Source: an uncultured Clostridia bacterium (GTDB lineage Bacteria > Bacillota > Clostridia > Christensenellales > Aristaeellaceae). Taken from it: 64,000 nucleotides of DNA. Location of the stretch: positions 1-64,000 of the forward strand of contig CANRLC010000005.1 of NCBI GenBank assembly GCA_947631405.1, read 5' to 3'. Positions 1,207 to 18,050 of the stretch are shown piece after piece. The notes beneath the pieces were generated by a model. That model was not told the DNA's origin. It ran no database searches and saw only the letters and a list, made by a program, of their open reading frames with translations. Position numbers and translations under genes: made by a program. Positions within the stretch are counted from its first letter, which is position 1. Every line of letters starts with the position of its first letter.

Positions 1207-1249
1207 TTCAGATCTCTTTGCTGCAATCACAAGGATGTGAAGTAAATGT

Positions 1250-2193: not shown

Positions 2194-2964
2194 ATGCGTG
2201 ATTTTACATTAAATGTGCTGGCTGCAAACCCCGGAAGGACAGGGCTGTTCTTTGTTGGACAGGCGGGCTTCATTGCCCGCAGCGCAGGAGGACAGATTTT
2301 GGGCCTCGACTTGTATCTATCCGACTGTGTGGAGCGGGTCGAGCGCAGCAATGGTTATAAGCGTCTGCAGCCGAAACTGTTGGGTGCAGGTGATCTGACG
2401 TTCGACTTGCTCATTGCGACGCATCCGCATAGGGATCATTTTGATGTGGACAGCATTCCGTTGCTAATGGCGAACCGACGGACGCAGCTGTGCGCGTCAT
2501 TAAAATGTCGGCCGGATGTCGAGCGGATGGAGATCGAGGACGCACGGGTTCACTATGTGCGCCCTGGGGATCGGCATATCTGCGGCGATTTTGTTGTCGA
2601 TTTCATCCCCTGCGACCATGGCGCGGGCACGCCTGACGCCGTCGGTGCAGTGATCGCTGTGGACGGGAAGCGAATTTGCGCCGTCGGAGATACCTGCCTC
2701 CGGCACGATTGGATACAGGCATATCAAACAAAAGGGCCGTTTGACGTGCTGATTGCGCCAATCAATGGCACCTATGGAAACCTGAACGAACGGGAGTGCG
2801 CGCAATTGAGCGGCGCGCTACGACCGAAGCTTGTCATTCCCTGCCACTTTGGAATGTTCGCTTCTCATGGCGGAAATCCCGGATTATTCAAGTCGATCAT
2901 GGACGGTGAATACCCGGATTTGCGATACGAATTCATGTGCCCGGGCGAAGGGTTGTTTCTTTGA
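2194..2964 (+). CDS. MBL-fold hydrolase (UlaG-like)
   Basis: Metallo-beta-lactamase-fold protein of 256 aa. The metal signature HxHxDH is present as H77, H79, D81 and H82 (THPHRDHFD). Further likely metal ligands lie in CDHGAG, AVGDTC and IPCHFG. The overall pattern recalls the UlaG/lactonase branch. The frame runs upstream into the sugar transferase, but ATG 2194 has GGAG 7 bases before it and begins at the conserved fold. It sits between the sugar transferase and an ATP-grasp gene, so it may cleave a lactone, phosphodiester or acyl intermediate of the glycan precursor. The substrate cannot be deduced. Confidence 0.75.
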   Translation: MRDFTLNVLAANPGRTGLFFVGQAGFIARSAGGQILGLDLYLSDCVERVERSNGYKRLQPKLLGAGDLTFDLLIATHPHRDHFDVDSIPLLMANRRTQLCASLKCRPDVERMEIEDARVHYVRPGDRHICGDFVVDFIPCDHGAGTPDAVGAVIAVDGKRICAVGDTCLRHDWIQAYQTKGPFDVLIAPINGTYGNLNERECAQLSGALRPKLVIPCHFGMFASHGGNPGLFKSIMDGEYPDLRYEFMCPGEGLFL

Positions 2965-3003
2965 TGAAGCATACCGAAAGCGCAAAAAGGAGGTTTGCGA
3001 AAA

Positions 3004-4272
3004 ATGAATGAGGATTTGGCCGGGAAGAAGCTCTTGATTCTGGGCGGAAACCCGGAAACTTTGCCGTTGGTTGAGATTGCCAACGCGATGGGTGTGAAGA
3101 CGATCGTCACGAGCTTTCGGGAGAGCGATCCGGCAAAGAAAGCGGCGTGGAAAAGCTTCAACGTGGACGGTATGGACGTGCCGGGACTCATTGCTCTGGC
3201 CCATCAGGAGGCGGTGGATGGCGTCCTTGTGGGCGTGGCCGACGTCCTCGTCCCATCATATTGCAAGGTTTGCGCAGCGCTAGGACTGCCCAGTTATGCT
3301 ACAGAGGATATTGTAAACGTTTTTGCCTTTAAGGATACGTTCAAGGCGACATGTGAGCGCTACGGCGTACACGGAATTCCCGAATACTATCTGGATGCCG
3401 AGTTGAGGCCGGAAGATGTCGCCAAGATCGACTATCCCGTCGTGGTTAAGCCAGTCGACGGCTTCAGCGGAATTGGCATGTCAGTCGTCTACAACGAAAA
3501 TGAGCTGCGGCCCGCAGTTCAGAAGGCGCTGAACGCTTCCATCAAAAAGCGCTTCATTGTAGAAAAGTATATGCAATGTGACGATGTGGGCATTTACTAT
3601 ACGTTCAAGGACGGATACTGCAGTTTGTCGTGTATATATGATCGATTCACCACAGAAGAACAGCGCGGATTAAGCCGGGTATGCCTTGGCGGCATTTACC
3701 CATCAAAACATATTAATGATTATTATGAAAGGATGCATGACAATGCGATTCGAATGTTTAGGGATATAGGAGTTAAGGACGGCGTGCTAATGATCTCTGC
3801 TTTTTATGCAGATGGTGAGTTTTATGTTTACGACCCAGGTTTCCGACTTCAAGGAGAAGCGCCGCATCTGTTGCTCAAGGCTATACATGGATATGATCAA
3901 CGTGAGATGTTAATTCGTTTTGCGTTAACTGGCTCTATAGGCGAGATTGATTTGCAGAAAATAGATGATCCCCGGCTTAGCGGGAAGGCGGCAGCAACAC
4001 TGTGGATTCTGCTTCGGGAAGGGATAATCGGGGAAATAAAAGGCTTTGAAGAGATTGAAAAAGAGCCTTTCGTAAAAGCAAATGTACAGCGACTTCATGT
4101 GGGTGATCATGTCTTGCATGAGTGGATCGGAACGGAGAAACAGGTATTGACGCGCTTCTATGTTGTCTGCGAGGATAAGCCCCAGCTGATTAACACTTTG
4201 CGTAGATATGTCTCGTTGATTCGGGTTTTGGACACGGATGGAAAAGACATGGTTATTCCTAGCTTTGTATGA
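3004..4272 (+). CDS. ATP-grasp ligase
   Basis: A 422-aa ATP-grasp protein related to the carbamoyl-phosphate synthase/PurK group. The N-terminal preATP-grasp Rossmann-like half opens with KLLILGGNPETLPLV. The ATP-grasp half contains FKDTFKATCERYGV, YPVVVKPVDGFSGIGM and FIVEKYM, with the metal-binding part around VYDPGFRLQGE. Such enzymes form an acyl-phosphate and couple it to an amine or thiol. Start ATG 3004 has AAAGGAGG 10 bases upstream; a TTG lies in frame at 2995. The aminotransferase and MBL hydrolase nearby suggest it attaches an amino acid or other acid to an amino sugar, but this is inference. Confidence 0.75.
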   Translation: MNEDLAGKKLLILGGNPETLPLVEIANAMGVKTIVTSFRESDPAKKAAWKSFNVDGMDVPGLIALAHQEAVDGVLVGVADVLVPSYCKVCAALGLPSYATEDIVNVFAFKDTFKATCERYGVHGIPEYYLDAELRPEDVAKIDYPVVVKPVDGFSGIGMSVVYNENELRPAVQKALNASIKKRFIVEKYMQCDDVGIYYTFKDGYCSLSCIYDRFTTEEQRGLSRVCLGGIYPSKHINDYYERMHDNAIRMFRDIGVKDGVLMISAFYADGEFYVYDPGFRLQGEAPHLLLKAIHGYDQREMLIRFALTGSIGEIDLQKIDDPRLSGKAAATLWILLREGIIGEIKGFEEIEKEPFVKANVQRLHVGDHVLHEWIGTEKQVLTRFYVVCEDKPQLINTLRRYVSLIRVLDTDGKDMVIPSFV

Positions 4273-4395
4273 GCAGGGAAGTTCGTTAAGATCGTGCAGA
4301 TAGGGTGGTTTTAACTGTAGCTTCATAAAGCACATGGATAACGTGCTAACAGAGATTTGAAATAAGCATCAAATTCAAGTCTCACGGGGGAAACT

Positions 4396-5166
4396 ATGCA
4401 TAAACAGGTATTGAAGAATAAAGTCATCGTCATATCTGGAGGCACTAAGGGCGTAGGGAAGACGATGGCTGAAGAATGCGCGATGCGCGGTGCTCGGGTA
4501 GTTATTGGCGGCCGGGATGAGGCTGCTGCAAAGAATTCGCTGCGACTGATTCATTCTTATGGCAGCGATGGTATGTTTGTCCACACTGAACTCATCAATG
4601 TGGACGACTGTCGTAAATTGCTGGATGCAGCCTATGATCGTTATGGAAAGGTGGATGGGCTTTTCAATTACGCGGGAATAACGCCAATCTCGCCACTTGA
4701 CACCTGCTCGCAGGAGACGTTCGACGCGGTGATGGACGTCAATTTTCGCGCGGCATTCTTCTGTTGCCAACAGGCGATCAAGTACATGCGCATCAACGGA
4801 GGCGGCTCTATTGTGCTGACGGGTTCTGCGCACGCATGGGGCGGTCAGAAGGACAGGGCGGCCTACGCCTGTTCCAAGGGCGTGCTACGGATTCTGATGG
4901 AGCACATCGCACACAACTACGCGACGGAGCATATCCGCTGCAACTATCTGACGCTTGGGTGGACCCCGACGGAGGGCGAGGTCTCGCTGCGGAAATCTCA
5001 GGGGGAAAGCGAAAAAGAACTGCGCGCGCGGGCCGCGCACATTCTGCCGATGGGAAGGATGTGCGAGCGCACCGATTACATCGAGGCGATCGTCTATCTT
5101 CTCTCCGATGCGTCCTGTATGATGACGGGAAGCACCTTCCGTGTGACCGCTGGAGAGTACATCTGA
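4396..5166 (+). CDS. Short-chain dehydrogenase/reductase (SDR)
   Basis: Classical SDR of 256 aa, the usual family length. The cofactor motif is GGTKGVGK (15-22), followed by NYAGI (91-95) in place of the usual NNAG. The catalytic Ser-Tyr-Lys is visible as S144, Y157 and K161 (YACSK). The basic residue in GGRDEA after beta-2 makes NADP(H) plausible. It lies 123 bp downstream of the ATP-grasp gene. It could reduce or oxidise a sugar intermediate. Because no phosphonoacetaldehyde reductase or transaminase is visible near the PEP mutase genes, it is also a weak candidate for that step. Confidence 0.8.
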   Translation: MHKQVLKNKVIVISGGTKGVGKTMAEECAMRGARVVIGGRDEAAAKNSLRLIHSYGSDGMFVHTELINVDDCRKLLDAAYDRYGKVDGLFNYAGITPISPLDTCSQETFDAVMDVNFRAAFFCCQQAIKYMRINGGGSIVLTGSAHAWGGQKDRAAYACSKGVLRILMEHIAHNYATEHIRCNYLTLGWTPTEGEVSLRKSQGESEKELRARAAHILPMGRMCERTDYIEAIVYLLSDASCMMTGSTFRVTAGEYI

Positions 5167-5582
5167 GCGCGGTAGAGTTTGGGGAGGATAAATCCTTAAT
5201 CGAAAACTTGAAGGAAGTGTAAAAGGCGTTGGGCGGAAAATCTTCCGAAAATTCAAACGCATTTGCGGTAAAATGACATGCCTTCCTTTCTTGCTTATAG
5301 GACGCGGCTTGGCGCAGTTCGCCACAAGGATTTTATCCTCTGTGACGAAGACGTGAATGAGTCATCTGTCATCGCATTATGAAGCGCTTTGAAGATCAGA
5401 ATACGAAACTGTGCGTGCTGTTGTTTGAAATTGCCGCCGCCGGAAGAGCGGGGAAGCAAGCGGAGTCATATTGCTATCGCGATCCAAATCGACCCTATTC
5501 GAAGTATAAAGCAAAGCACTTTCGCAAGAACGCATAGCCCCCAGTACGCTTGCGAGAAATAACAAAGCGAGGGATGAGACAG
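5167..5582 (+). other. Gene-poor stretch in the glycan cluster
   Basis: About 415 bases separate the SDR and the next confident gene. One small open frame (5379-5537, 52 codons from ATG) has no convincing ribosome binding site and no recognisable motif, so it is not called. No strong hairpin terminator is seen, so the cluster may still be one transcript. A separate promoter is possible, but no convincing -35/-10 pair was identified. Confidence 0.4.
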
Positions 5583-7115
5583 ATGTCGCCAGAATATATC
5601 GTCGTCCAGGCGGGCGGCAGGGGAAGCAGGCTCGGCCGCCTCACCGAGAACAAGCCTAAAGCGCTTGTTCCAGTAGACAACCTTCCGATGCTGTTTCACC
5701 TGTTTCGTCAGTTTCCAGACAAGCGATTCATCATCGTCTCCGATTATCAATCGGACGTCATGCGAAAGTATTTGAACGCTTTCGCTGACGTCCGGTTTTT
5801 GGTCGTGGAGGTGCATGGCGCGCACGGAACATGCGCGGGGCTGCACAAAGCGTTGTCGAAGATTCCGGACGGCGAAGCGTTCATGTTGATTTGGTCTGAC
5901 CTGGTGTTGCCGCCCGACTTTGAATTGCCGAGGTCAAACGGGAACTATATCGGTCTGTCAAAGGGATTCCCTTGCCGGTGGCGCTATCAAAACGGGTGCT
6001 TTGAAGAGACAGAGTCGCGCGAGACGGGTGTGGCAGGCCTTTTCATATTTGAGGACAATCGCTTCTTGAAGGAAGTGCCGGAAGAAGGAGAGTTTGTCCG
6101 TTGGTTAAAGGGGCAAGAGCTTGCATTCAAACCTCTCTCGTTGGAACGGACGCACGAATACGGTCTGCTGTCCGTAGTCGAAAATGCAGAGGAAGCCGTT
6201 GCTGGGTATCGATGCCGCCCGTTTAACCGAATTGAGATCAGCGAGGACGGCAAGCGTCTTACGAAAATTGGCGTCGATGCGCAGGGACAGGCCTTAGCGG
6301 AGAGAGAGAAGCAATGGTATCAATTTGTCGAGGCAAAGGGGTATCCGCATATCCCGCGCATCTACGGCTACGAGCCGTTTGTCATGCAGCGAATCAAGGG
6401 CAAAAATATATTCGCTTACAATCTGAACAGATCGCAAAAAGAAGCGGTGCTGAAAAAGCTGATCGAGAGCCTGAGAACGCTCCACGGCTTGGGCGACGCC
6501 CCGACGGACTGGTTCAGCGTACACGACGCCTATATTGGCAAAACGTGGAGGCGGCTGGATAAAATCCGTGATCTTGTGCCGTTCGCGGATCGAGAATATA
6601 TCGTCGTCAACGGAAAGCGTTGTAGAAACGTATTTTACCATAAAGATCAGATTGAACGGATGTTTGAGCGCTGCGCTTGCGAGAAATTTGTGTTTCTTCA
6701 CGGAGACGCAACCTTCTCAAACCTGATCTTGAATGAGAAAATGGATCCAGTGTTGATTGATCCGCGAGGGTATTTTGGGTACACGACGTTTTACGGCGAT
6801 CCTTCCTACGATTGGGCGAAGCTGTATTATTCGATCGTGGGGAATTATGACCAGTTTAACCAAAAGCGCTTTCGCTTGAAAATCCAGCAGGAGAGCGTCG
6901 AACTATCCATTCAGTCAAACGGTTGGGAGGACATGGAGGCGCTGTTCTTCTCCCTTTTAGGTGGCGAAGTGGACAGAAGATATATTCGGTTGCTCCATGC
7001 GATCATTTGGCTATCGCTGACTACCTATGCGTGGGAAGACTACGACTCGATTTGCGGTGCGTTCTACAACGGTCTATATTACCTTGAAGACATTTTGGCT
7101 TTAGGAGAATGGTAA
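5583..7115 (+). CDS. Nucleotidyltransferase-phosphotransferase (APH-like kinase) fusion
   Basis: Two enzymes in one chain of 510 aa. Residues 1 to about 225 are a sugar nucleotidyltransferase domain with the glycine-rich loop VVQAGGRGSRLG and the KPKALVPV segment. The C-terminal half is an APH/choline-kinase-fold phosphotransferase: the catalytic HGDATFSN motif begins at about residue 373 and the metal-binding Asp is in LIDPRG at about 392. ATG 5583 has an AGCGAGGG site 11 bases upstream and directly precedes the conserved fold. The stop codon overlaps the next start (TAATG). With the SIS and HAD genes it looks like a kinase plus nucleotidyltransferase for sugar activation. The LicA/LicC pair of choline activation is the main alternative. 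Confidence 0.75.
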   Translation: MSPEYIVVQAGGRGSRLGRLTENKPKALVPVDNLPMLFHLFRQFPDKRFIIVSDYQSDVMRKYLNAFADVRFLVVEVHGAHGTCAGLHKALSKIPDGEAFMLIWSDLVLPPDFELPRSNGNYIGLSKGFPCRWRYQNGCFEETESRETGVAGLFIFEDNRFLKEVPEEGEFVRWLKGQELAFKPLSLERTHEYGLLSVVENAEEAVAGYRCRPFNRIEISEDGKRLTKIGVDAQGQALAEREKQWYQFVEAKGYPHIPRIYGYEPFVMQRIKGKNIFAYNLNRSQKEAVLKKLIESLRTLHGLGDAPTDWFSVHDAYIGKTWRRLDKIRDLVPFADREYIVVNGKRCRNVFYHKDQIERMFERCACEKFVFLHGDATFSNLILNEKMDPVLIDPRGYFGYTTFYGDPSYDWAKLYYSIVGNYDQFNQKRFRLKIQQESVELSIQSNGWEDMEALFFSLLGGEVDRRYIRLLHAIIWLSLTTYAWEDYDSICGAFYNGLYYLEDILALGEW

Positions 7116-7699
7116 TGGAGCAGTATTTTGAAAACACAGTCCGGATATTGAGCGATTCAATACACAGCATTGACGTCCGGGAATTTGGAGCGCTCGTTGA
7201 CGCTTGCGAGCTTACGCTGCGCGCAGGCGGGCGGATTGTCGCTTCGGGGCTGGGAAAAAATGTGCCTGTTTGTGAAAAGTTTGTGGGCGCAATGGTTTCG
7301 CTCGGGATGGAAGCCAATTTTATGCACACCAATTCCGCCGTCCACGGGGATTTGGGTATGGTGCGCAAAGGGGATCTCGTCATCGTTTTAAGCAAAAGCG
7401 GCACCACGGCGGAGACGGTATATCTGGTGAATCTGCTGCAGGAGCGCGGATGTGAAATCTGGCCGTTGACGTTTAACCGCGACTGCGCGATTGTGCGGGA
7501 AATCGGCCATTGTGTTGCGCTTTCCCTCGAGCACGAGGGAGACCCGTGGAACATATTGCCGAATCATTCTACAGTTCTGAATCTTGTGGTGTTACAGACG
7601 CTCGCTATGACGCTGGCGAAGAGAATGAACATCCGTTTGGAGGACTTTCGGGCAAATCATCCGGGCGGGGCGATCGGCGCCCGGTTGAAGGAAAGGTGA
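7115..7699 (+). CDS. SIS-domain sugar-phosphate isomerase (KdsD/GutQ/KpsF-like)
   Basis: Single SIS domain of 194 aa, lacking the CBS pair of full-length KdsD. The motifs GLGKNV, HGDLGM, LSKSGTTAE and C-terminal NHPGGAIGARL match the D-arabinose-5-phosphate isomerase group rather than GmhA. The likely reaction is ribulose-5-phosphate to arabinose-5-phosphate. ATG 7115 is preferred over 7109 because AGGAG (7103-7107) then lies 7 bases away, and the start overlaps the upstream stop, pointing to translational coupling. No KDO synthesis genes are visible, so the product probably feeds the fusion kinase next door. Confidence 0.75.
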   Translation: MEQYFENTVRILSDSIHSIDVREFGALVDACELTLRAGGRIVASGLGKNVPVCEKFVGAMVSLGMEANFMHTNSAVHGDLGMVRKGDLVIVLSKSGTTAETVYLVNLLQERGCEIWPLTFNRDCAIVREIGHCVALSLEHEGDPWNILPNHSTVLNLVVLQTLAMTLAKRMNIRLEDFRANHPGGAIGARLKER

Positions 7700-7704
7700 T
7701 TTCC

Positions 7705-8115
7705 ATGATTTTGACCGACGAGGGCCTGAATCTTGCGCTGTCGAGGCTGCCGCATACATGGATTCTCGATTTGGACGGCACACTTGTAAAGCACAACGGC
7801 TATAAGACGGATGGTGCGGATTCCTTTCTGGAAGGCGCAAAGGAATTCCTCATGAGCATCGATGAAAAAGATATGATCATTCTTCTGACTTCACGCGGGG
7901 AGGACGTTCGTGCGGAAACGGAAGCCTTCCTGCACGCGCATCAGATTCGGTTCGACGCAATCCTATATAACGTGCCCTACGGTGAGCGCATTGTGATCAA
8001 CGATGATAAGCCGTCTGGCCTTGGAACAGCGGTAGCGATACGGAAGGCGCGAGACGCTGCGCTGTATATTCAGGCGTCCATCGATGAAGCCCGCGCAATG
8101 CAAAGAGAGCTGTAG
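7705..8115 (+). CDS. HAD-like phosphatase of capsule-cluster type
   Basis: Small HAD-superfamily protein of 136 aa. Motif I is DLDGTL with the nucleophile at about D22 and general acid at about D24. Motif II is in LLTSR, and the acidic motif near the end is NDDKPSG. No large cap domain is present, as in other small glycan-cluster phosphatases. ATG 7705 is chosen because GAAAGGTG precedes it and the fold starts here; the longer open frame from 7510 overlaps the SIS gene. It would remove the phosphate left after kinase action, in the way GmhB does in heptose pathways. Confidence 0.75.
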   Translation: MILTDEGLNLALSRLPHTWILDLDGTLVKHNGYKTDGADSFLEGAKEFLMSIDEKDMIILLTSRGEDVRAETEAFLHAHQIRFDAILYNVPYGERIVINDDKPSGLGTAVAIRKARDAALYIQASIDEARAMQREL

Positions 8116-8157
8116 TCGGACTGGAAAAACGTCGGTGTAAGCGAGAGGACGTGTACG

Positions 8158-9144
8158 ATGAGCGATTACTTGAAATATAACGGACTTAAGAAAACCGTGC
8201 GCAACCGAATTAAGACATGGGGTGGCGCATGGTGGGGCGCGTGGATTTTTGCAAAGCTGCTGCGCCGGAACAAGCACACCCATTATGTGGTGGTTCCCCC
8301 CGGCATAGGCGATACGATATGCGCGCTGGCTTTTCTGCGGGCATATAGGGAGAAAGAGAAGCTCTCCCATGTCACGCTTGTGGGCGGCGCCAATACGACC
8401 AAGCAGCTTTGCGCCTTCTATGGCGATTTGGTTGATGACCTCATCATCCTGAGCAGGAACGCAGATTTAAGCCTGCTGTATTTCCCGGGAACCTACTTTG
8501 GACAATGGCTCTGCGCGTACAGTTGCCGGCCTAGAATTACAATCGCCCATTATCTCTGCAATATTCCGCAGCGAAACGTATGGGACAACTCATATTTCTG
8601 CCTGCAGGATTTCATCAAATGCATGTCCTATCAAATCGGCCCTGACGCACTGCCGGAACATCCGCATGTTCCACAGGTGGACGTGAGCAAACTCATACGC
8701 AGATACGGTGTTGAAAAGGACAAGACCGTCTTCCTCAATCCATACGCAAACGCGGTGAAATTGGATGTAAAGAACCTGTTTAAGCATATCGCGGAAGCGC
8801 TGATCGAGAGGGGCTATCGCGTTCTTACCCTTACAGCGCATGAAGCGCAGCATCCCGTTGAGGGCACGCAGGCGCTGCTTTGCGATCTAAGCGAAGCCTT
8901 TCGGCTGGCGGAGTATGGCGGAACCCTCATCGGGCTGCGGAGCGGCTTTTTAGACCTGATGGTTTTTGCAAAGTGCAGAATGATTCCAATCGACGACGAT
9001 GCTTATGGCAGAAAAGAGTTTTTTAAGCTAGAAAAGTGGGGCGTCAACAAGGACTGCCATACCGTTACATACAAAACAGAGGAGCAAGCGCTTGCAGAAA
9101 TCCTAGAAAAAATGGAGATATTCGCGGGAGGCGAGAGTTGTTGA
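8158..9144 (+). CDS. Glycosyltransferase family 9-like (heptosyltransferase-like) protein
   Basis: A 328-aa protein with a GT-B-like layout. The early VVVPPGIGDTICALAF motif is typical of ADP-heptose:LPS heptosyltransferase relatives. A second Rossmann-like half starts near VFLNPYANAVK, with a C-terminal donor-site region around GGTLIGLRSGF. AGAGGA lies about 10 bases before ATG. It sits straight after the nucleotidyltransferase-kinase, SIS and HAD genes, so it is the best candidate to use the sugar nucleotide they make. Gram-positive GT9-like proteins are poorly characterised; donor and acceptor are unknown. Confidence 0.65.
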   Translation: MSDYLKYNGLKKTVRNRIKTWGGAWWGAWIFAKLLRRNKHTHYVVVPPGIGDTICALAFLRAYREKEKLSHVTLVGGANTTKQLCAFYGDLVDDLIILSRNADLSLLYFPGTYFGQWLCAYSCRPRITIAHYLCNIPQRNVWDNSYFCLQDFIKCMSYQIGPDALPEHPHVPQVDVSKLIRRYGVEKDKTVFLNPYANAVKLDVKNLFKHIAEALIERGYRVLTLTAHEAQHPVEGTQALLCDLSEAFRLAEYGGTLIGLRSGFLDLMVFAKCRMIPIDDDAYGRKEFFKLEKWGVNKDCHTVTYKTEEQALAEILEKMEIFAGGESC

Positions 9145-10388
9145 TCTCAAAAAATCGCACGAGTGAAAAGCTATTCTACGCGCTTTTGATATTTCCTTAT
9201 TTTGTGCAAAGAAACTGGATATATTTTGGATCGTGGATTCAAGCCATGTTAGATATTCACCGAATTCTTACATTATGTGTTCTTATTATTCTCGTTATTG
9301 GAAAGCGCATAAAAATCAATAGCTATCTAGTAGGTGTATGTTTTTATATGGTGACTCTTCTAGTTTCAACAATAATAAATCATGGCCCGCTTATACGATG
9401 CATGAACTATATATGCAACATTGTTGCTCCTACATTGTTCGTCTATGTACTATTTCATAAAGACACGTTAATGTGTTTAGATGCGATGCTTTTTCCAATG
9501 GAGATTCTCATTTATGCAAATCTGTTGACAGTCCTTCTGTTTCCGAATGGAATGTATGTAACAGTAAACTATGCGGGACAACAAACGAGAAACAACTGGT
9601 TACTAGGTATGGACAACGGACAAGCCCCCCTCTTTTTGTGGGCAATAACGGTGTCCGTGCTTAGAACATATTTTATAACGGGAAAGACCAAACTGACACC
9701 GCGGAATTTATTCTTACTTGTTGCCATTCTGGCAACGGTGCTTATTTGTTGGCAAGCGACCATCATAGTCGGAATGACAATCATTGTGTTTGCACTGCTT
9801 TTTTCAGAGTATTTTGCCAAAGCAAAACTCTTAAATATTTGGACGTATTTTTTAATTGTTGCAATCGTTTTTGCTCTATTAGTAATTTTTCAAAGCGTAG
9901 GCGGTTTTTCTTATATTATTCAGACTATTCTTCGTAAAGATCTTACATTCTCAGGGAGGGTTATGATTTGGGGGAAGACAATAAAGGCCATCAGTCAACA
10001 TCCGTTGCTTGGCTATGGACGTCAAGACGATTATTTTATGTGGAAAAGTGTTGGCCATATTCACACACATAATATGTATCTTCAAACGCTTTATCAAGGG
10101 GGTATTTTACATTTTAGCGTATTTATTTTTGTGCATTTAGTAACCGCAAAAAAACTGTACAAAAATAATGAAAACGTTCTAAGCAATGCTTTGTCAATGA
10201 TTTTATTTTGTTTACTGATTATGTTCCAAGTAGAAGCTTATGCCTATTCATTTTGGATTGTTATATTTCAACTCTGCTATGAATCCGATTGGCTTATTCA
10301 CAAAAGAGCACAAATAGCAAACGCGGAAGGGATAAAAGTGCCGCGCAAGATTGTACTTCGATTGAAAAGTGGAGGAATCGGAGTATGA
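9138..10388 (+). CDS. Wzy-like O-antigen/polysaccharide polymerase
   Basis: Highly hydrophobic protein of about 416 aa with roughly ten membrane segments and a long loop containing RVMIWGKTIKAISQHPLLGYG, the usual sign of O-antigen polymerase/ligase (Wzy/WaaL) proteins. It would polymerise lipid-linked repeat units outside the membrane. The start is TTG 9138 or TTG 9141, with GGAGG at 9127-9131; it overlaps the end of the previous gene. The open frame extends upstream but only through that gene. Base composition is strikingly AT-rich compared with both flanks. The 3' end overlaps the flippase start as ATGA. Confidence 0.75.
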   Translation: MLISKNRTSEKLFYALLIFPYFVQRNWIYFGSWIQAMLDIHRILTLCVLIILVIGKRIKINSYLVGVCFYMVTLLVSTIINHGPLIRCMNYICNIVAPTLFVYVLFHKDTLMCLDAMLFPMEILIYANLLTVLLFPNGMYVTVNYAGQQTRNNWLLGMDNGQAPLFLWAITVSVLRTYFITGKTKLTPRNLFLLVAILATVLICWQATIIVGMTIIVFALLFSEYFAKAKLLNIWTYFLIVAIVFALLVIFQSVGGFSYIIQTILRKDLTFSGRVMIWGKTIKAISQHPLLGYGRQDDYFMWKSVGHIHTHNMYLQTLYQGGILHFSVFIFVHLVTAKKLYKNNENVLSNALSMILFCLLIMFQVEAYAYSFWIVIFQLCYESDWLIHKRAQIANAEGIKVPRKIVLRLKSGGIGV

Positions 10389-11833
10389 GTCGAGTTTCTT
10401 TCAAAAAGGCCGCGCTGATCAATGCTTCTTCTCGATACCTGAATATCATTATCTACATCGTCTTCAATGCGATTGCCTCGCGCTTGCTCACACCCGAAGA
10501 GTACGGTATATTCGCAGTGACGACCATTTTTACGACGTTTTTCAGCAAAATCTATGACAGCGGCTTTGGCGCTGCGATTATTCAGGATAAGGGCTTGCAA
10601 CGGAATGACGTCTGCTCAATCCACACCTTTATGTGCTATGTCGGCTTGGCGCTTGCGCTGGCGTTTGCCGCCTTGGGCGCGCCAATTTCAGCCATATATA
10701 AAAACAGCGCATATATTCGCATCTGCATGGTGCTTGCGGTGGGCATCTTCTTTAACACAGTGAGCATTGTTCCATACTCGTATCTGCTGAGAGAAAAGCG
10801 CTTTTTTCACACAGCGGCGTTGGATGTGGCGGGCGGTTTTTTCAGCTATGCGATAGCGTTAGTTCTAGTGTTCGCGGGCTTCAAGTATTACGCGCTGGCG
10901 GCGCAAGTGGTCATACAGGCGTTTATCAAGTTTACCTCGAGCAAGCTTTTGACGGGCATTTCTGCCCGAAGAAAAATTGATAAGCGGCCGCTGCGCAGGG
11001 TCTTGCCCTTTACGCTCTATGAGCTGGGATCGATGATCATCAACTACTTTGAGTTGAATCTGGATAATATCCTCGTCAGCCTGACGATGGGTAGTACGAT
11101 GCTGGGTTATTATAATAAATCGTATACGCTCAGCCGCTACCCGGTTTCCGCCGTGGCGGGTGCCGTGTCGCCCGTGCTGCATCCCGTACTGTCGGATTAC
11201 CAATCGAATCCAGAAGAAATGTACAGGAAGTACATCCGGTTTTTGCTATGCGTTTCAACGGTTGCGATTGCCGTGGCGTCGTGTTGTTTCGGCGCCGCTA
11301 GAGAGATCATTTTGATTCTGTACGGCGGGCAATGGGAGGCCTGCGTGCCCAGTTTCCGCTATCTGACGATGTGCATCTATCCCGTGTTCATGATGTCAGG
11401 AAATATTGGAATATACAAGAGTTTGGGGCGTACAGATCTTCTGTTTCGTGCGGTCGTCATCAACGCGGCCGTTACCACTCTTGCATCCCTTGTCGGCGTT
11501 TTGATGGGTTCGATAGAGACCGTGGCTCTCTGTGTTTGTATCGCAAACTGGTCGAATATGTTTATGACGCTGTTTATTTTGAACCGCTTCGGTTTCAAAA
11601 GCGCTTATCTGGAATTCTGGCGGCATTTTCTCCCGGATCTGATCGCGCTATTCGGAATACAACTGATCTACACGGCCGTTTTCCAGCGCTTTCTGTGGGG
11701 GTCAAACGTTCTCCTGCTCGCCTTTGAAAAATGCGCGGCGATCGGCGTCATGTATGCGGCGTATATGCTGATTTCAAAGCGATATGTCTATGTGCTTTCT
11801 CTGCTGAGCAGAAAAAGGCGTCGTGATTTATGA
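10385..11833 (+). CDS. Wzx-type polysaccharide flippase (MOP superfamily)
   Basis: A 482-aa multi-spanning protein with about 12-14 predicted membrane segments. The N-terminal pattern (ALINASSRYLNIIIYIV, SRLLTPEEYGIF) is that of oligosaccharide flippases and lipopolysaccharide exporters. It would turn lipid-linked repeats to the outer face for the Wzy-like polymerase. ATG 10385 is supported by GGAGG at 10371-10375 and overlaps the upstream stop. GC content returns to the cluster average here, marking the 3' border of the AT-rich polymerase gene. Confidence 0.85.
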   Translation: MSRVSFKKAALINASSRYLNIIIYIVFNAIASRLLTPEEYGIFAVTTIFTTFFSKIYDSGFGAAIIQDKGLQRNDVCSIHTFMCYVGLALALAFAALGAPISAIYKNSAYIRICMVLAVGIFFNTVSIVPYSYLLREKRFFHTAALDVAGGFFSYAIALVLVFAGFKYYALAAQVVIQAFIKFTSSKLLTGISARRKIDKRPLRRVLPFTLYELGSMIINYFELNLDNILVSLTMGSTMLGYYNKSYTLSRYPVSAVAGAVSPVLHPVLSDYQSNPEEMYRKYIRFLLCVSTVAIAVASCCFGAAREIILILYGGQWEACVPSFRYLTMCIYPVFMMSGNIGIYKSLGRTDLLFRAVVINAAVTTLASLVGVLMGSIETVALCVCIANWSNMFMTLFILNRFGFKSAYLEFWRHFLPDLIALFGIQLIYTAVFQRFLWGSNVLLLAFEKCAAIGVMYAAYMLISKRYVYVLSLLSRKRRRDL

Positions 11834-11928
11834 GCCTTCCAGCCGCTGCGCGGACTGCGAAAATAAGCTGAAACGATTGGATTTTATAGGTTCAGTCCCA
11901 TGACCAATGATGCAAAGGAGTCAAAAAG

Positions 11929-12783
11929 ATGGAAGACTTGCGAAAGCTGCAGCTCAAAGAACTGGAGATCCTAGAACGATTCAAAAAGATTTGTGCGGAA
12001 CATAACCTCATCTATTATCTTACCTTTGGTACGCTTCTTGGGGCAGTCAGGCACAAGGGATTTATCCCTTGGGATGATGATATTGATGTGATGATGCCGA
12101 TCCGCGATATGGAAAAGCTGGAGCAGATCTATCAGGAGGAGAAATGGCCGGGGCTTTTTTTGCAGACGCCCAATACGGAACCGCAGGCGGGCCTGACCTA
12201 TTACAAATTGCGCTTGGATGGAACAACTCTATTGGTAGATCGAATGATCGACAAAGATATTCACCATGGTATCGATATTGATATCTATCCATTGTATAAC
12301 GCGCCGGAAAATCGCATTTTGTGGATGTTCCAATATGGTGTGGCGTTGCTCTATATGCTGCTGCAAACGGAAGAGCCTCCAATAAACCATGGGAAAGCGA
12401 TACAATGGGCCTCCAATATGGTTCTTGCTGTGTGCAAAGGCAGATTGCGCAAAGCGGTTCGAGACTTTTGCTATCGGTATATGGCGAAGTACGAAGGGCG
12501 CCAAACGCCCTATAAAGCGATCCTGAGCTGCAATCCGCATTATGCAAAACCGCGATATCCAATTTCTGTATTCGGTACTACAGCGACCTTGCCTTTTGAA
12601 GGAAAAGATTTCAGCGTTCCGCAGGATTGCGATACATGGTTGAAACTGAAATATGGTAATTATCAAACGCTTCCACCACAAAATGAGCAGGGTAACAAAT
12701 TAGAACACATTCTGAAATTGGATCTCGAACATTCCTATCTTGATTATAGGGGTATCTATTATTTGCGGAAGGATACCGAGTAA
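11929..12783 (+). CDS. LicD-family phosphotransferase
   Basis: LicD/fukutin-like protein of 284 aa. The family core is visible: YYLTFGTLLGAVRH followed by IPWDDDIDVMMP, where the acidic cluster binds metal. LicD proteins transfer phosphocholine or similar groups from a CDP or CMP carrier to sugars. AAAGGAG lies about 8 bases before ATG. It directly precedes the radical SAM, cytidylyltransferase and PEP mutase genes, so it is the most likely transferase for a CMP-activated phosphonate. Choline or another polyol phosphate cannot be excluded. Confidence 0.85.
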   Translation: MEDLRKLQLKELEILERFKKICAEHNLIYYLTFGTLLGAVRHKGFIPWDDDIDVMMPIRDMEKLEQIYQEEKWPGLFLQTPNTEPQAGLTYYKLRLDGTTLLVDRMIDKDIHHGIDIDIYPLYNAPENRILWMFQYGVALLYMLLQTEEPPINHGKAIQWASNMVLAVCKGRLRKAVRDFCYRYMAKYEGRQTPYKAILSCNPHYAKPRYPISVFGTTATLPFEGKDFSVPQDCDTWLKLKYGNYQTLPPQNEQGNKLEHILKLDLEHSYLDYRGIYYLRKDTE

Positions 12784-12819
12784 CCCAATGCATACTAATC
12801 TTTATAGGAGGAAATCATC

Positions 12820-13851
12820 ATGACCGAACAAATGGGCAAGCAGGTGGACTTACAGGAGCGCGTGCGCCTGAAGACGGCGAGCCGCGACGAACTGTACAGC
12901 TTGACGCCGCCATTCCCCAAGTCGAATTTCCTGATGGAATTGTCCAACGCATGCAATCACGCGTGCATCTTCTGTGCGCATCAAAAGATGCAGCGCAAGG
13001 TGGGCAAGATCGATCAGAAGCTTGCGTTTGACATTCTGCAGCAGGCGTATGATCTGGGAACGCGCGAGGTGGGCTTTTACGCGACCGGAGAACCTTTCCT
13101 GGTGCCTGAGCTGCCGGAGTACATCCGCAAGGCGAAGGAGATCGGGTACAGCTATGTGTACCTGACCTCCAACGGCTCTTTGGCAACGCCGGAGCGTATA
13201 CGCGCGGTCATCGACGCCGGGCTGGACAGCCTCAAGTTCTCGATCAACGCGCCGGAACGGGAACTGTACAAATTTATCCATGGGCGAGACGACTTTGATA
13301 AGGTCATGGAGCATCTCAAATATCTCAACCAATATCGAAATGAAAGCGGCAAGGATTTCAAGATCTATGTTACCGGCATTCTCACCCGCTATACCGAGAA
13401 ATTGAAGGATGAGTATTTCAAAGTGTTTGACGGTCTGGCGGATCAGATCGTATTCAAGTATGTGTACAATCAGGGCGGTTATATGCCGGAGATCGAAACT
13501 TATCTGCGCTGCGAGAGCGATACCGCGCCGCGCAGACGGTGCAACCTGCCGTTTGACGCGATCTCTGTGACTTGGGAGGGCTATCTTTCTGTCGAGAACG
13601 CCGACTATGAGAACATGCTCGTCGTCGCAGATCTCAATAAGGTCTCGCTGAAGGACGGCTGGTACGGAGAAAAGATGACGGACATGCGCCGCAGATTCTT
13701 GGAAGACGATTTGGGCGGAACGCTCTGCGACGGCTGCGTGCATCGCTGCCTGCGCCCAGCCAAACCGCTGACGCCGGAGTGCTCGCAAATCAAGGAGTAT
13801 ACGTTCGACGATTCGCTCGTCCGGGAACGCGTTCAGAAGGCGAACCTTTGA
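12820..13851 (+). CDS. Radical SAM protein with SPASM-like C-terminus
   Basis: Radical SAM enzyme of 343 aa. The [4Fe-4S]/SAM motif CxxxCxxC is C45, C49 and C52 (CNHACIFC). A glycine-rich SAM contact, FYATGEPFLVPE, follows. C-terminal cysteines in RRRCNLPFD, LCDGCVHRCL and PECSQ resemble a SPASM or twitch cluster region. There is no N-terminal cobalamin domain, unlike Fom3. TAGGAGG precedes the ATG, and the next gene begins 12 bases after the stop. Position between LicD and the phosphonate genes suggests tailoring of the phosphonate or its carrier, but the reaction is unknown. Confidence 0.8.
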   Translation: MTEQMGKQVDLQERVRLKTASRDELYSLTPPFPKSNFLMELSNACNHACIFCAHQKMQRKVGKIDQKLAFDILQQAYDLGTREVGFYATGEPFLVPELPEYIRKAKEIGYSYVYLTSNGSLATPERIRAVIDAGLDSLKFSINAPERELYKFIHGRDDFDKVMEHLKYLNQYRNESGKDFKIYVTGILTRYTEKLKDEYFKVFDGLADQIVFKYVYNQGGYMPEIETYLRCESDTAPRRRCNLPFDAISVTWEGYLSVENADYENMLVVADLNKVSLKDGWYGEKMTDMRRRFLEDDLGGTLCDGCVHRCLRPAKPLTPECSQIKEYTFDDSLVRERVQKANL

Positions 13852-13863
13852 GGAGGCGAGATC

Positions 13864-14289
13864 ATGGCGCAGGAAAATCTGGTCTATGTGCCGATGGCGG
13901 CGGATATCGTCCACCCCGGGCATATCAACATCATCCGGATTGCGGCTCAGTACGGCAGAGTGATGGTCGGACTGTTTACCGATGAGGCGATCGCCTCGTA
14001 TAAACGTGTGCCATATATGCCCTATGAACAGCGTAAGGCCGTCATTGAGAACATCAAGGGCGTGAGCGAGGTTGTGCCGCAGCTGACGCGTGATTACGCA
14101 GATAATTTGAAAAAGTATAAGCCCAGATACATGGTGCATGGAACGGACTGGCGCGAAGGCCCACTGGCAGACGTGCGCGCCAAGGCGATCGCCCTGATAG
14201 CCGAGTGGGGCGGCGAGATCATCGAGCCGGAATACACGCAGGGCGTTTCGTCCTCGATGATCCAGCAAAAAATACGCGATAGAGGTTGA
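13864..14289 (+). CDS. Cytidylyltransferase-like protein (TagD family)
   Basis: A 141-aa nucleotidyltransferase of the HxGH type. The nucleotide-binding motif is HPGH in DIVHPGHINII, and the end carries SSSMIQQKI, corresponding to the ISSTxI signature of glycerol-3-phosphate cytidylyltransferases. It is clearly related along its length to the N-terminal domain of the next protein, so the two form a tandem pair. Substrate could be a phosphonate or a small phospho-alcohol that becomes CMP- or CDP-linked for LicD. Start follows GAGGCGAG directly. Confidence 0.8.
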   Translation: MAQENLVYVPMAADIVHPGHINIIRIAAQYGRVMVGLFTDEAIASYKRVPYMPYEQRKAVIENIKGVSEVVPQLTRDYADNLKKYKPRYMVHGTDWREGPLADVRAKAIALIAEWGGEIIEPEYTQGVSSSMIQQKIRDRG

Positions 14290-14293
14290 AGCA

Positions 14294-15601
14294 TTGAGTA
14301 ATCAAGAGAAGACCGTTTACACCTGCTTTTGCACGGACGTTATCCACGAAGGGCATTTGAACATCCTCCGCGAGGCGCAAAAGCTGGGGCGCGTGACGGT
14401 GGGCGTGCTGAGCGATGAAGCGGTCATCCGCTACAATCGCTTTTTTACGATTGACTTTGCGGAGCGCTTTAAGCTCGCACAGCGCTTGCCGGGTGTGGCC
14501 AACGTGGTCGTGCAGCGCGACATTCACTATGACGATGTGATCCGGAAGCTGAAACCGGATTATGTGGTGCATGGGGACAACTGGCTGACGGGGCCGATGC
14601 GAGCGATACGAGACAACGTCGAGAAGCTGGTCGGCGAGTACGGCGGTCAGGTCGTGGATATTCCCTATACATATAGCGAAGAAGTCAAGCGCATCGACGA
14701 CCGAAAGCGAGAGACGCTGGCAATGCCGGAGTATCGTCGGGGACGGCTGCGCAAGCTGATCCGCCTGTGTCCGATCGTCAAGACGCTGGAGGTGCATAGC
14801 GGTCTGACGGGGTTAATCGCAGAAAAGACCGTGGTGGAGCACAACGGCGAGCTGGATCAATTCGACGCGATGTGGATCAGCTCGCTATGCGATTCCACAG
14901 CAAAGGGAAAGCCGGACATTGAACTGGTAGACATGACATCGCGCTTTAGAACGATTGACGACGTGATGGAGGTCACCACCAAGCCCATCATCTTCGACGG
15001 AGATACAGGCGGGCTGATCGAGCATTTTGTGTATACGGTGCGCTCTCTAGAACGGATGGGTGTGTCGGCGGTCATCATCGAGGACAAGACGGGACTGAAG
15101 AAAAACTCGCTCTTCGGCACTGAGGTCGAGCAGACGCAGGACACCATCGAGCATTTCTGCCAGAAGATCCATGCCGGGAAAAAGGTGCAGCTCACGGACG
15201 ACTTCATGATTATCGCCCGCATCGAAAGCCTGATTCTGGAAAAGGGCATGGAAGATGCGCTGGAGCGTGCGAAGGCGTATGTCGAGGCGGGCGCGGATGC
15301 GATCATGATCCACAGCAGGCGCAAGGAGCCGACGGAGATTCTCGCGTTCTGCGACCGCTTTCGTCAGACGGACGCGCGGACGCCGATCGTCGTCGTTCCG
15401 TCGTCGTTCAATTCGGTGACGGAGGATGAACTGCGCCAGCATGGGGTCAACATCGTCATTTATGCCAATCAACTGACGCGAAGCGCTTTTCCGGCGATGC
15501 AACAGACAGCCAAGGACATTCTGCGCTATCATCGCGCACTCGAAGTGGACGACAGGCTGATGCCGATCAAGCAGATATTGACGTTGATCGACGAGCTTTA
15601 G
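14294..15601 (+). CDS. Cytidylyltransferase-PEP mutase fusion (Fom1-like)
   Basis: A 435-aa bifunctional protein. Residues 1 to about 130 are a cytidylyltransferase-like domain with HEGH (DVIHEGHLNIL). From about 155 to the end is phosphoenolpyruvate mutase of the isocitrate-lyase fold, with the catalytic loop EDKTGLKKNS at about 263-272 and an early D-x-D region FDGDTGG. The mutase makes the C-P bond by converting PEP to phosphonopyruvate. The same order occurs in Fom1 of Streptomyces fosfomycin synthesis, where the N-terminal domain loads CMP on hydroxyethylphosphonate. Start is TTG with AGAGG 8 bases upstream. Confidence 0.85.
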   Translation: MSNQEKTVYTCFCTDVIHEGHLNILREAQKLGRVTVGVLSDEAVIRYNRFFTIDFAERFKLAQRLPGVANVVVQRDIHYDDVIRKLKPDYVVHGDNWLTGPMRAIRDNVEKLVGEYGGQVVDIPYTYSEEVKRIDDRKRETLAMPEYRRGRLRKLIRLCPIVKTLEVHSGLTGLIAEKTVVEHNGELDQFDAMWISSLCDSTAKGKPDIELVDMTSRFRTIDDVMEVTTKPIIFDGDTGGLIEHFVYTVRSLERMGVSAVIIEDKTGLKKNSLFGTEVEQTQDTIEHFCQKIHAGKKVQLTDDFMIIARIESLILEKGMEDALERAKAYVEAGADAIMIHSRRKEPTEILAFCDRFRQTDARTPIVVVPSSFNSVTEDELRQHGVNIVIYANQLTRSAFPAMQQTAKDILRYHRALEVDDRLMPIKQILTLIDEL

Positions 15602-15610
15602 GAGAAAAGG

Positions 15611-16762
15611 ATGAACGTTAAAAACCTGCTGAAGATCATCGGCGCGGACTTCTACGCCGGAGTACCGGACAGCCAGCTACGCGCCCTGTGCGACTACTTG
15701 ATGTCAGCCTATGGCATCGACCCCAAACATCACGTCATCGCGGCGAACGAGGGCAACGCCGTCGGCTTGGCCGCGGGGTATCACCTTGCCACGGGCAAGG
15801 TGCCAGCCGCCTACATGCAGAATAGCGGCATCGGCAACGCGGTCAACCCGATCGCGTCTCTGATGAACGACAAGGTATACGGCATCCCGTGTGTGTTCAT
15901 CGTGGGTTGGCGCGGCGAGCCGGGCGTGCATGACGAACCGCAGCACGTCTTTCAGGGGGAGATCACGCTCAAACTGCTGGAGGACTTGGACATCCAGACG
16001 TTCGTCCTCAGCAAGGAGACGACAATAGAGGAGCTGCAAGCCGCGATGGACGGCTTCCACCCGCTGCTGGCGTCGGGCAAGCAGGTCGCCGTCGTCGTGC
16101 GCAAGGGCGCGCTGACGTTTGACGGCGAGGTCGCCTACCGCAATGAGTATGAAATGACCCGCGAGGAGGCGATCCGCCGCATTGCGCGCACAGCAGACGA
16201 GGATGTGATTGTCTCGACGACGGGCAAGGCGAGCCGCGAGCTGTTCGAGATCCGTGAGGGGAACGGCGAAGGACACGCGCACGACTTTTTGACGGTCGGC
16301 TCGATGGGGCATAGCTCGTCCATCGCGCTGGGGATCGCGGCGCAGCGACCGGGGCGGCGCCTCTGGGTGATTGACGGGGACGGCGCGGCGCTGATGCACA
16401 TGGGCGCGATGGCGGTGCTGGGCGCGAATCGGCCCGCGAACATGGTGCATATCATCATCAACAACATGGCGCACGAGACGGTGGGCGGGATGCCGACGAT
16501 CGCAGGGAAGATCGACCTGCCCGCGATCGCGACGGCCTGCGGCTATCCGCATGCGCTGCTTGTATCGACAGTTGTCGAACTAGACGCGGCGCTCGCGGCG
16601 GCAAAGTCAGCGAACGAACTGACGCTGATCGAGGTGCGGTGCGCGATCGGCGCGCGGACCGACTTGGGCCGCCCGACTACGACTCCGCAAGAGAATAAGC
16701 GGGCGCTGATGGAGGAACTGGGCGTGGGCGAGAATGCAAAAAACTGCTATGGGACTATGTGA
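15611..16762 (+). CDS. Phosphonopyruvate decarboxylase
   Basis: ThDP-dependent decarboxylase of 383 aa that pulls the unfavourable PEP mutase reaction forward by making phosphonoacetaldehyde. The N-terminal half holds ANEGNAVGLAAGYHL, with the ThDP-activating Glu. The C-terminal half holds the ThDP-binding motif GDGAALMHMGA ending near IINN. It starts 9 bases after the PEP mutase stop, so the two are co-translated. No transaminase (PhnW/AepZ) or dedicated reductase follows. The last about 10 residues read into a decayed glf fragment in another frame, so the original C-terminus may have been slightly shorter or different. Confidence 0.88.
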   Translation: MNVKNLLKIIGADFYAGVPDSQLRALCDYLMSAYGIDPKHHVIAANEGNAVGLAAGYHLATGKVPAAYMQNSGIGNAVNPIASLMNDKVYGIPCVFIVGWRGEPGVHDEPQHVFQGEITLKLLEDLDIQTFVLSKETTIEELQAAMDGFHPLLASGKQVAVVVRKGALTFDGEVAYRNEYEMTREEAIRRIARTADEDVIVSTTGKASRELFEIREGNGEGHAHDFLTVGSMGHSSSIALGIAAQRPGRRLWVIDGDGAALMHMGAMAVLGANRPANMVHIIINNMAHETVGGMPTIAGKIDLPAIATACGYPHALLVSTVVELDAALAAAKSANELTLIEVRCAIGARTDLGRPTTTPQENKRALMEELGVGENAKNCYGTM

Positions 16763-16932: not shown

Positions 16933-17413
16933 TCTTTGCATTGAGTCCATTTTTATACATTTTAATATAACATAAGTAATGCAATTTTTGCTTGTATGAA
17001 CAGACTTCGTGCCACTGTAATTTGTTTCTGTTTTTTATGAAGGTTGCTTTTTGCTTTGATCGGAGAGAAACTCAAAGCTGTAGGTTTGTCAAACCTCTTG
17101 GACAGAGAAGTTTGAGAGAAAGCCTCTGGGGGATGCTCGTCGAATAGGACGCATAGGGCGGCGGTGTGAATGGGGAAATTTGTGCTTTTCTCAGAGCTGT
17201 TGTATAATGTGAATGCGCTCCGAGAGCATCGCGAGGGCAGGATGGTCAAGAGGCGAAAAACGATATAAGAATTTGAAATATAAAAAATAGAGAGTCGGCA
17301 TATCAACTCCCTCGGGGTTCAGGAATAGTCCCCATATGCTGGCATTACCCCCGATCCACGATCAGTATATTCAATTTCACATGAATTGTCAAGTGGAGAA
17401 GAAGTTAAATCGC
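16933..17413. other. Non-coding stretch including the probable CRISPR leader
   Basis: No convincing gene. An antisense frame (16962-17306) has no motif and odd composition. The last 100-150 bases are AT-rich and lie directly 5' of the first repeat in repeat orientation, so they are the likely leader. No cas2 remnant was recognised. Confidence 0.5.
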
Positions 17414-17853
17414 GTCGCACCCCGCAAGGGACGCGTGGATTGAAATGAGGACGGCGTGCTGGAGGCCTACGAGATCATTGGTCGCACCCCGCGAGGGGTG
17501 CATGGGTTGAAATAACGCGGCGGAGCACCAGCACTTTGTGACCACCAAATCGCACCCCGCGAGGGGTGCGTGGGTTTGAAATGACATCACCGAGGGCGCG
17601 CGGGGGATCACCGATCTGGTCGCACCCCGCGAGGGGTGCGTGGGTTGAAATGCGTGAAAGACCGCCGGATAGATGATCTCGCTCATGTCGCACCCCGCAA
17701 GGGGCGTGTGGGTTGAAATTGCATTAGTACATCGCCGATGTATTTCTCGTTTTGGTCGCACCTCGCAAGGGGTGCGAGGGTTGAAATATGTCGCCAACCT
17801 CGCATTACGATAAAGAGCGGGTCGCACCCCGCAAGGGGTGCGTGGATTGAAAT
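17414..17853 (+). CRISPR. CRISPR array, type I-C-like repeats, 7 repeats and 6 spacers
   Basis: Seven repeats of 33 bp (one of 34) start at 17414, 17481, 17549, 17619, 17687, 17755 and 17821. They begin GTCGCACCCCGC and end TGGGTTGAAAT or TGGATTGAAAT, the usual form for type I-C systems. Spacers are 33-36 bp and all different. Repeats vary at several positions (GCAAGG/GCGAGG, GGATT/GGGTT), and repeat 3 has an extra T and starts with A. The terminal GAAAT places the leader to the left. A degenerate eighth repeat may begin at 17888, after a 34-base spacer-like gap. No cas gene is present in the window. Confidence 0.93.
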
Positions 17854-18050
17854 GTGCAGTCGTCGCAGACATAAGCCTTGTCGCCCTGTCGCGCCTTGCC
17901 CTGCGTTGGAGCCAAAAAAAGACGCCCGTTTTTCGAGCACCCGCCTGCCGAATTTGCGTTAGGAGATATGCGCGCGAATCCGGAGATGAATCTGAGAAGC
18001 ATCCATTTTCCTGTGCGCGATATGAATAGGCGTCGGCATCCGGATTCTTC

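Follow-up and report, generated by a model that had tools for sequence, protein, structure and literature searches.

A row of five genes near the start of contig CANRLC010000005.1 of an uncultured Clostridia bacterium (assembly GCA_947631405.1) encodes a LicD-family phosphotransferase, a radical S-adenosylmethionine (SAM) protein (rSAM), a stand-alone Fom1-type cytidylyltransferase (CyT1), a second cytidylyltransferase-like domain fused to phosphoenolpyruvate (PEP) mutase (CyT′-PEPM), and a phosphonopyruvate decarboxylase (Ppd). The stretch analyzed here, hereafter the window, comprises the first 64,000 nucleotides of the contig. A sequence-only reading of the window had proposed that the row decorates a surface polysaccharide with a phosphonate activated by cytidine monophosphate (CMP). 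All five open reading frames (ORFs) were found exactly where that reading had placed them, on one strand and separated by gaps of 36, 12, 4, and 9 bases, and Pfam and TIGRFAM agree with the family assignments (Table 1). The proposed capacity for phosphonate synthesis is borne out by Ppd and by the PEP mutase (PEPM) part of the fusion, both of which exceed their family cut-offs; the latter scored 418.9 bits against TIGR02320 (cut-off, 319.55) and carries the EDKX5NS motif as EDKTGLKKNS. The setting in a glycan cluster also holds, with a Wzx flippase (PF13440) and a Wzy polymerase (PF04932) directly upstream of the five genes and a SIS protein elsewhere in the upstream cluster.

Table 1. Genes of the five-gene row and of the glycan cluster upstream of it in the window
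Feature	Position	Strand	Evidence and remarks
LicD-family phosphotransferase	11929-12783	+	PF04991 3e-39; candidate transferase of a phosphonyl or other cytidine diphosphate (CDP)-linked group
rSAM, 343 aa	12820-13851	+	PF04055 1.3e-20; SPASM PF13186 1.1e-4; SPASM-like C-terminal region
CyT1, stand-alone Fom1-type cytidylyltransferase	13864-14289	+	PF01467 1.4e-13; HPGH, QGVSSS; probable CMP loader
CyT′-PEPM fusion	14294-15601	+	PF01467 6.3e-12 and PF13714 2e-56; TTG start
Ppd, phosphonopyruvate decarboxylase	15611-16762	+	TIGR03297 471.3 bits (cut-off 312.5)
Wzx-type flippase	10380-11833 (ORF 10289-11833, start approximate)	+	PF13440 3.2e-60
Wzy-type polymerase	9100-10388 (ORF 9036-10388, start approximate)	+	PF04932 Wzy_C 3.3e-14
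NTP_transf_3 and APH fusion (LicC- and LicA-like)	5550-7115	+	PF12804, PF01636; possible alternative source of a LicD donor
Short-chain dehydrogenase (SDR)	4396-5166	+	PF13561; possible, unproven aldehyde reductase
DegT aminotransferase, bacterial sugar transferase, metallo-beta-lactamase-fold protein, ATP-grasp protein	34-4272	+	Start of glycan cluster

Four of the five genes, those for rSAM, CyT1, CyT′-PEPM, and Ppd, recur as a cassette in nine genomes, namely that of the window and those represented by loci L016, L017, L025, L063, L106, L145, L146, and L147. The cassettes of L017 (3.7 kb, with rSAM truncated) and L146 (3 kb, with CyT1 truncated and no Ppd seen) are partial, and the absence of a gene means little for these two short contigs, for L025, in which rSAM lies at the contig start, or for L145, whose contig ends near the cassette. 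The rSAM, hardly discussed in the sequence-only reading, is the most unusual part of the row. Its core, CNHACIFC, has the CX3CX2C form, and Pfam detects Radical_SAM and SPASM domains alone, with no cobalamin (B12)-binding domain of the kind that marks Fom3-type class B enzymes. Auxiliary clusters of SPASM proteins are bound by a defined cysteine motif, and the set is incomplete here: the position of the Cys-Cys pair reads Glu-Asn (ENAD) in all nine cassette proteins, compared with a first-position Cys in 8/8 and Cys-Cys in 7/8 other radical SAM sequences. Because the pair is replaced in all nine, the auxiliary cluster probably differs from that of usual SPASM proteins. The best sequence match in the PDB was BtrN (1.8e-9), spanning the core and a weak C-terminal stretch; rSAM differs from BtrN and the SPASM-twitch enzymes by this low similarity and by the Glu-Asn substitution. 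Searches of viral contigs gave no relatives, and the 57 plasmid records matched were all below 60% identity, with 23 to 26% for the ten that were listed.

The rSAM is closely tied to CyT1. In three of the nine cassette genomes, belonging to two divergent lineages, the two proteins are fused: L063, from a strain (Eubacterium sp. MSJ-21) rather than a metagenome-assembled genome (MAG), encodes both in a single 490-residue open frame, L145 encodes them as one protein of 475 aa, and in L146 rSAM reads in frame into CyT1 up to the contig end. Between L063 and L145 the rSAM parts share 66.6% identity, and trees of rSAM and CyT1, which were mostly unresolved, do not decide between a single origin of the fusions and independent ones in L063 and in L145/L146. 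In all nine loci rSAM lies at most two genes from CyT1, even in clusters with otherwise different glycan genes. Comparison of L106, in which CyT1 and CyT′-PEPM stand in reversed order, to the window gives 74% identity for rSAM and 71% for CyT1, as against 58% for the PEPM domain and 51% for Ppd, and the rSAM-CyT1 pair there seems to form a separate unit. The fusions and the co-occurrence, together with the precedent of Fom3, suggest by analogy that rSAM may have as its substrate a CMP-phosphonate or the direct precursor of one. We also observed distant relatives of rSAM in L107 (9681-10451, 38% identity) and L110 (10039-10734, 32%) that adjoin genes resembling, by eye, CMP-nonulosonate synthetase genes; these neighbors may hint at a broader tie of such rSAMs to CMP-activated groups.

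CyT1, of the two cytidylyltransferase-type domains in the window, is the closer to Fom1. It is 52% identical to the Fom1 cytidylyltransferase domain (50 to 54% for six CyT1 proteins), its best PDB match is the structure of that domain (5x3d, 3.6e-48), and it carries both HPGH and GVSSS, the nucleotidyltransferase motifs that CMP activation requires. GVSSS was present in all five stand-alone CyT1 proteins of the loci first examined, and the motif also occurs in L106 (GISSS), L145 (GVSST), and L147 (GISSS). The fused CyT′ of the window is 40% identical to the Fom1 domain (1e-31 against 5x3d) and 35 to 36% identical to CyT1; it has the first motif, as HEGH, and lacks the second, G-[IV]-S-S-[ST], which functions in nucleotide binding in the superfamily. 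Among fused domains at large the pattern is the same. In a set of 85 loci, HxGH was present in 85/85 and the SS[ST] motif in none, and in a set of 100 loci, one of which (L139) has no CyT domain, G-[IV]-S-S-[ST] was missing from 98 of 99 fused domains, the window's included; it is likewise missing from those of L145, L146, and L147, which lie outside the 99. HxGH was retained by 97 of the 99, the exceptions being L130 and the stop-split L004, which had scored as positive in the 85-locus set. The sole locus to depart from the loss of the second motif, L135, has a near-intact GVSIT, with an iron-containing alcohol dehydrogenase (Fe-ADH) alongside and PF12804 genes nearby.

Since the second motif is lost from the fused domain and intact in CyT1, which is also nearer to Fom1, we assign loading to CyT1: the motifs and identities argue strongly that it, rather than the PEPM-fused domain, couples CMP to the phosphonate, and that CMP loading is probably not the work of the fused CyT′. 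The expectation of activation by a Fom1-type enzyme is thereby upheld, for a different protein from the one named in the sequence-only reading, which had given the task to the fused domain. That domain is related to Fom1, as had been supposed, and has lost a key motif; the loss that would have told against CMP loading as a whole, in both cytidylyltransferase domains, affects the fused one only. Of the 98 loci with an altered domain, 80 hold a further nucleotidyltransferase (a separate PF12804 protein in 70, a fused PF12804 domain in 4, CyT1 in 5, and both PF12804 and CyT1 in 1). Within the main group the loop that replaces the motif, about YTxNExVK[RK][ID], is a conserved feature in its own right, and for this reason we term the domain remodelled, not dead. 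Regulation, nucleotide binding, service as a partner subunit, and altered catalysis are all candidate roles. The motif survey also means that PEPM-fused PF01467 domains tallied as activating enzymes may have had their function overstated. Separately, proteins of 744 to 770 aa in L043, L044, L049, and L050 (and L076), loci that also hold CyT′-PEPM, have by BLAST CyT′-like and iron-containing alcohol dehydrogenase parts and no PEP mutase, and their N-terminal part resembles by eye a PF12804 nucleotidyltransferase.

What the cassette would feed to CyT1 can be narrowed by the genes that it lacks. Among 80 loci from named genomes, which are the best 80 of 589 and over-represent close relatives (L003 and L033, each of 23,405 bases, are apparently one contig), BLAST found an aminoethylphosphonate (AEP) transaminase in 56, a PF12804 protein of the PntC-like cluster in 55, and both in 45; the one transaminase scanned from its cluster exceeded the TIGR03301 cut-off. 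The AEP-transaminase profile matched 71 of 100 PEPM loci but none of the six cassette loci in that set. No AEP transaminase was found among the scanned ORFs of the window's cluster, and its genome assembly (94% complete) yielded only a partial match at 33% identity. Across the nine cassette genomes no close homologue was found, with no match in G865 (E ≤ 1e-5) and partial matches at 23 to 39% identity in the others. The earlier remark that no transaminase is visible therefore stands for the AEP type in this assembly and not for aminotransferases generally, a DegT-type sugar aminotransferase being present at 34-1206. The phosphonate would be a two-carbon compound other than AEP, most likely hydroxyethylphosphonate (HEP) or a relative. 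Elsewhere, a protein of 393 to 408 aa occupies the place of the AEP transaminase directly 5′ of CyT′-PEPM in L003/L033, L040, L057, L071, and L094, and lies elsewhere in the locus in L092. The L003 copy matches a saccharopine dehydrogenase NADP-binding family below cut-off and the L040 copy has no NCBIfam match; it possibly represents another branch of phosphonate synthesis.

We propose with moderate confidence that the row is a variant of the phosphonyl-tailoring (Pnt) pathway within a Wzx/Wzy glycan cluster, in which CyT1 would make a CMP-phosphonate other than CMP-AEP and rSAM would modify it or its precursor. By family, PEPM would convert PEP to phosphonopyruvate and Ppd would convert this to phosphonoacetaldehyde, steps in which we have high confidence, and sequence argues strongly that CyT1 would then join CMP to a two-carbon, non-AEP phosphonate. 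Most likely, to judge from fusion and co-occurrence, rSAM would alter the phosphonate once it is bound to CMP, or the direct precursor of that compound, with CMP as a handle, in a reaction like that of Fom3 but independent of B12. With less assurance, LicD would move the phosphonyl group onto a glycan unit, to be followed by Wzx/Wzy export and polymerization. More tentatively, rSAM and the Fom1-type cytidylyltransferase may constitute a two-part or one-protein machine of Bacillota that combines CMP loading with B12-independent radical rebuilding to yield an undescribed glycan phosphonate, the cytidylyltransferase-like domain fused to PEPM in this clade having ceased to load CMP and been repurposed.

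Several observations weigh against this proposal. The near-universal HxGH argues against plain decay of the fused domain, which might still catalyze with a different loop. Moreover, 18 of the 98 altered-domain loci show no other nucleotidyltransferase; 14 of these are stretches shorter than 15 kb, and the other four (L057, L060, L085, and L088) are 19 kb long, which argues against a second enzyme simply having taken over. Together with the conservation of the replacement loop, these points favor a reading in which the fused CyT′ is a working cytidylyltransferase with a rebuilt loop and CyT1 serves, say, a sugar or polyol phosphate. We consider that reading improbable, since CyT1 is nearer to Fom1 than is CyT′, the second nucleotidyltransferase in most altered-domain loci is what would be expected if CyT′ did not load, and the near-intact fused motif of L135 occurs with an alcohol dehydrogenase, an arrangement that recalls Fom1-type HEP synthesis, even with PF12804 genes nearby as well. 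With respect to the rSAM-CyT1 pair, L145 and the window share 70% identity in rSAM, 66% in CyT1, 69% in the PEPM domain, and 67% in Ppd, so that the pair is no better conserved than its neighbors and the co-conservation argument comes from L106 only. An AlphaFold model of rSAM made from four sequences had a mean predicted local distance difference test (pLDDT) score of 49 and was discarded, which prevented any comparison of the active site. MAGs or incomplete assemblies account for several of the genomes.

Others concern the identity of the phosphonate. The AEP transaminase query matched four loci at 63 to 77% identity, with no whole genome known to hold the gene as a control, and the cassette contains no dedicated phosphonoacetaldehyde reductase. 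Fe-ADH is present in some related clusters, and among five cassette genomes searched a 51% homologue was found in one (G457, on another contig). Partial matches at 27 to 35% in G000, G458, and G460 and none in G459 led us to reject it as the cassette's reductase. We likewise rejected the SDR in that role, as it is not a core gene, having matches at E ≤ 1e-40 in only 2 of 10 genomes (G000 and G623). An ordinary Pnt pathway would make plain HEP, or AEP by an unrecognized transaminase, which CyT1 or CyT′ would load and LicD transfer, leaving rSAM to act on the glycan or elsewhere. The Pnt pathway is already published (PMC6697681), HEP is the substrate of the Fom1 cytidylyltransferase (PMC6697681 and PMC8158854), and related clusters do hold Fe-ADH or an AEP transaminase. 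Nevertheless, we regard this explanation as rather unlikely, given the fusion of rSAM to CyT1 in three loci, their proximity in all nine, which include clusters whose glycan genes otherwise differ, and the failure of searches of the nine genomes to return a close AEP transaminase.

The transfer step is a weaker part of the Pnt-variant proposal. The sequence-only reading had named LicD as the natural acceptor enzyme. A LicD profile matched 18 loci in the set of 85; of the nine loci with the cassette, some of which are short or cut contigs, it matched only the window and L106. Neither LicD nor the CDP-glycerol-transferase type (22/85) can be the general transferase at these frequencies. In L016 a PntC-like PF12804 gene lies directly upstream. 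The PntC profile had no match in the first 20 kb of the window, in which the only such protein is the divergent PF12804-APH nucleotidyltransferase/kinase, an addition to the earlier account of the cluster. This protein has only weak matches among solved structures, and it could supply LicD with another CDP-linked group. Two separate decorations are thus conceivable, with LicD and the PF12804-APH protein adding a phosphocholine-like or other CDP-linked group and the phosphonate going to a lipid, another glycan, or a secreted small molecule. A PF12804 and Choline_kinase protein near the cassette in L147, the failure to find LicD in seven of the nine cassette loci, and the resemblance of an rSAM with a Fom1-type cytidylyltransferase to a small-molecule pathway all lend weight to this alternative. 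We think it unlikely, because LicD directly precedes rSAM in the window and follows Ppd by five bases in L106, in whose 19-kb stretch no relative of the PF12804-APH protein was found, and because the kinase domain of the latter matches PF01636 and not the choline kinase family PF01633. LicD therefore remains a plausible, if weak, candidate for the phosphonyl transferase.

The broader idea of a surface polysaccharide bearing a phosphonate is partly supported here, and it is not new. Rice et al. (2019; PMC6697681) reported fused nucleotidyltransferase domains in about 60% of PEP mutases, with PF01467 as the partner in 23.6%. They proposed that surface glycans are tailored by way of CMP-phosphonates and noted LicD-like phosphotransferases in the gene neighborhoods that they studied. 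The Pnt pathway described there, with PntC of Treponema denticola and Atopobium rimae, shares with the window a PEPM often fused to a nucleotidyltransferase, Ppd, CMP activation, LicD-like phosphotransferases or glycosyltransferases, and the glycan setting. The window differs in that no AEP transaminase was found, activation apparently occurs by a stand-alone Fom1-type PF01467 protein rather than the PF12804 protein PntC, and a radical SAM protein is coupled to the cytidylyltransferase. In fosfomycin synthesis in Streptomyces, Fom3 methylates HEP-CMP, the product of Fom1, Fom2, and FomC (PMC8158854); the order of cytidylyltransferase and PEPM (5x3d) and a radical SAM enzyme beside a cytidylyltransferase are common to both systems, whereas here the fused domain lacks SS[ST], rSAM is SPASM-like with no B12 domain found, and the genes lie in a glycan cluster. 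The Lic phosphocholine pathway (LicA, LicC, and LicD) has in common with the window a LicD-family protein (PF04991) and a nucleotidyltransferase-kinase fusion; in the window the kinase domain is of the general APH family and LicD adjoins the phosphonate genes, about 4.8 kb from the fusion.

Two elements go beyond these precedents, namely the pairing of rSAM with CyT1 and the remodelling of the fused domain. The association of rSAM with a fosfomycin-type cytidylyltransferase in such clusters appears to be new. Searches of open-licence literature returned no paper whose title or abstract opening describes the pairing, and some of the papers returned (for example, PMC9381506 and PMC3543383) mention radical SAM in passing. 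To our knowledge, the precedent for a radical SAM enzyme next to a cytidylyltransferase of the Fom1 type is fosfomycin synthesis. The text of one paper on a Fom1-related context (PMC11546328) does not contain the term “radical SAM.” If the proposal is correct, the CMP handle for radical phosphonate chemistry would not be peculiar to fosfomycin producers but would extend to the decoration of surface glycans in Bacillota; a surface phosphonate and a radical SAM reaction, both new, would await discovery. The natural rSAM-cytidylyltransferase fusion brings the question within direct reach of assays on one or two purified proteins.

The cassette is rare, as only three weak rSAM matches (26 to 29% identity) occur in 398 genomes of the window's phylum besides its own genome. 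Window-type rSAM and CyT1 are carried by four named loci (L016, L017, L025, and L063). A sample of 299 genomes, largely the same genomes as one further sample, contained two with the cassette, the seed included, and added G623 (L106); a sample of 300 contained three and added G865 and G981 (L145 and L146); and a sample of 63 contained two and added G1070 (L147). The window and L106 also share DegT, ATP-grasp, and SDR genes (55%, 66%, and 75% identity; window 34-5166, L106 14510-17713). Three cassette loci also have an adenylylsulfate (APS)-kinase-like gene close by (L106 12276-12902, L145 11156-11722, and L146 54-617), about 93% identical between L145 and L146 and 47% between L145 and L106, with no match in the window, L016, L017, L025, L063, or L147.

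Genes of the window's cluster (1-16762) have a GC content of 36 to 56%, and Ppd 63%, against 61% for the whole window; this difference suggests that the low-GC glycan cluster is acquired DNA, consistent with horizontal acquisition. The first base of the window is the first base of the contig, and the cluster may therefore be cut. Just 3′ of the cluster is an array resembling clustered regularly interspaced short palindromic repeats (CRISPR) at 17408-17854, with seven imperfect repeats (by eye, about 32 bases each) at a spacing of 66 to 70 bases, and it is followed by repeated blocks of 200 to 300 bases up to about 19365.

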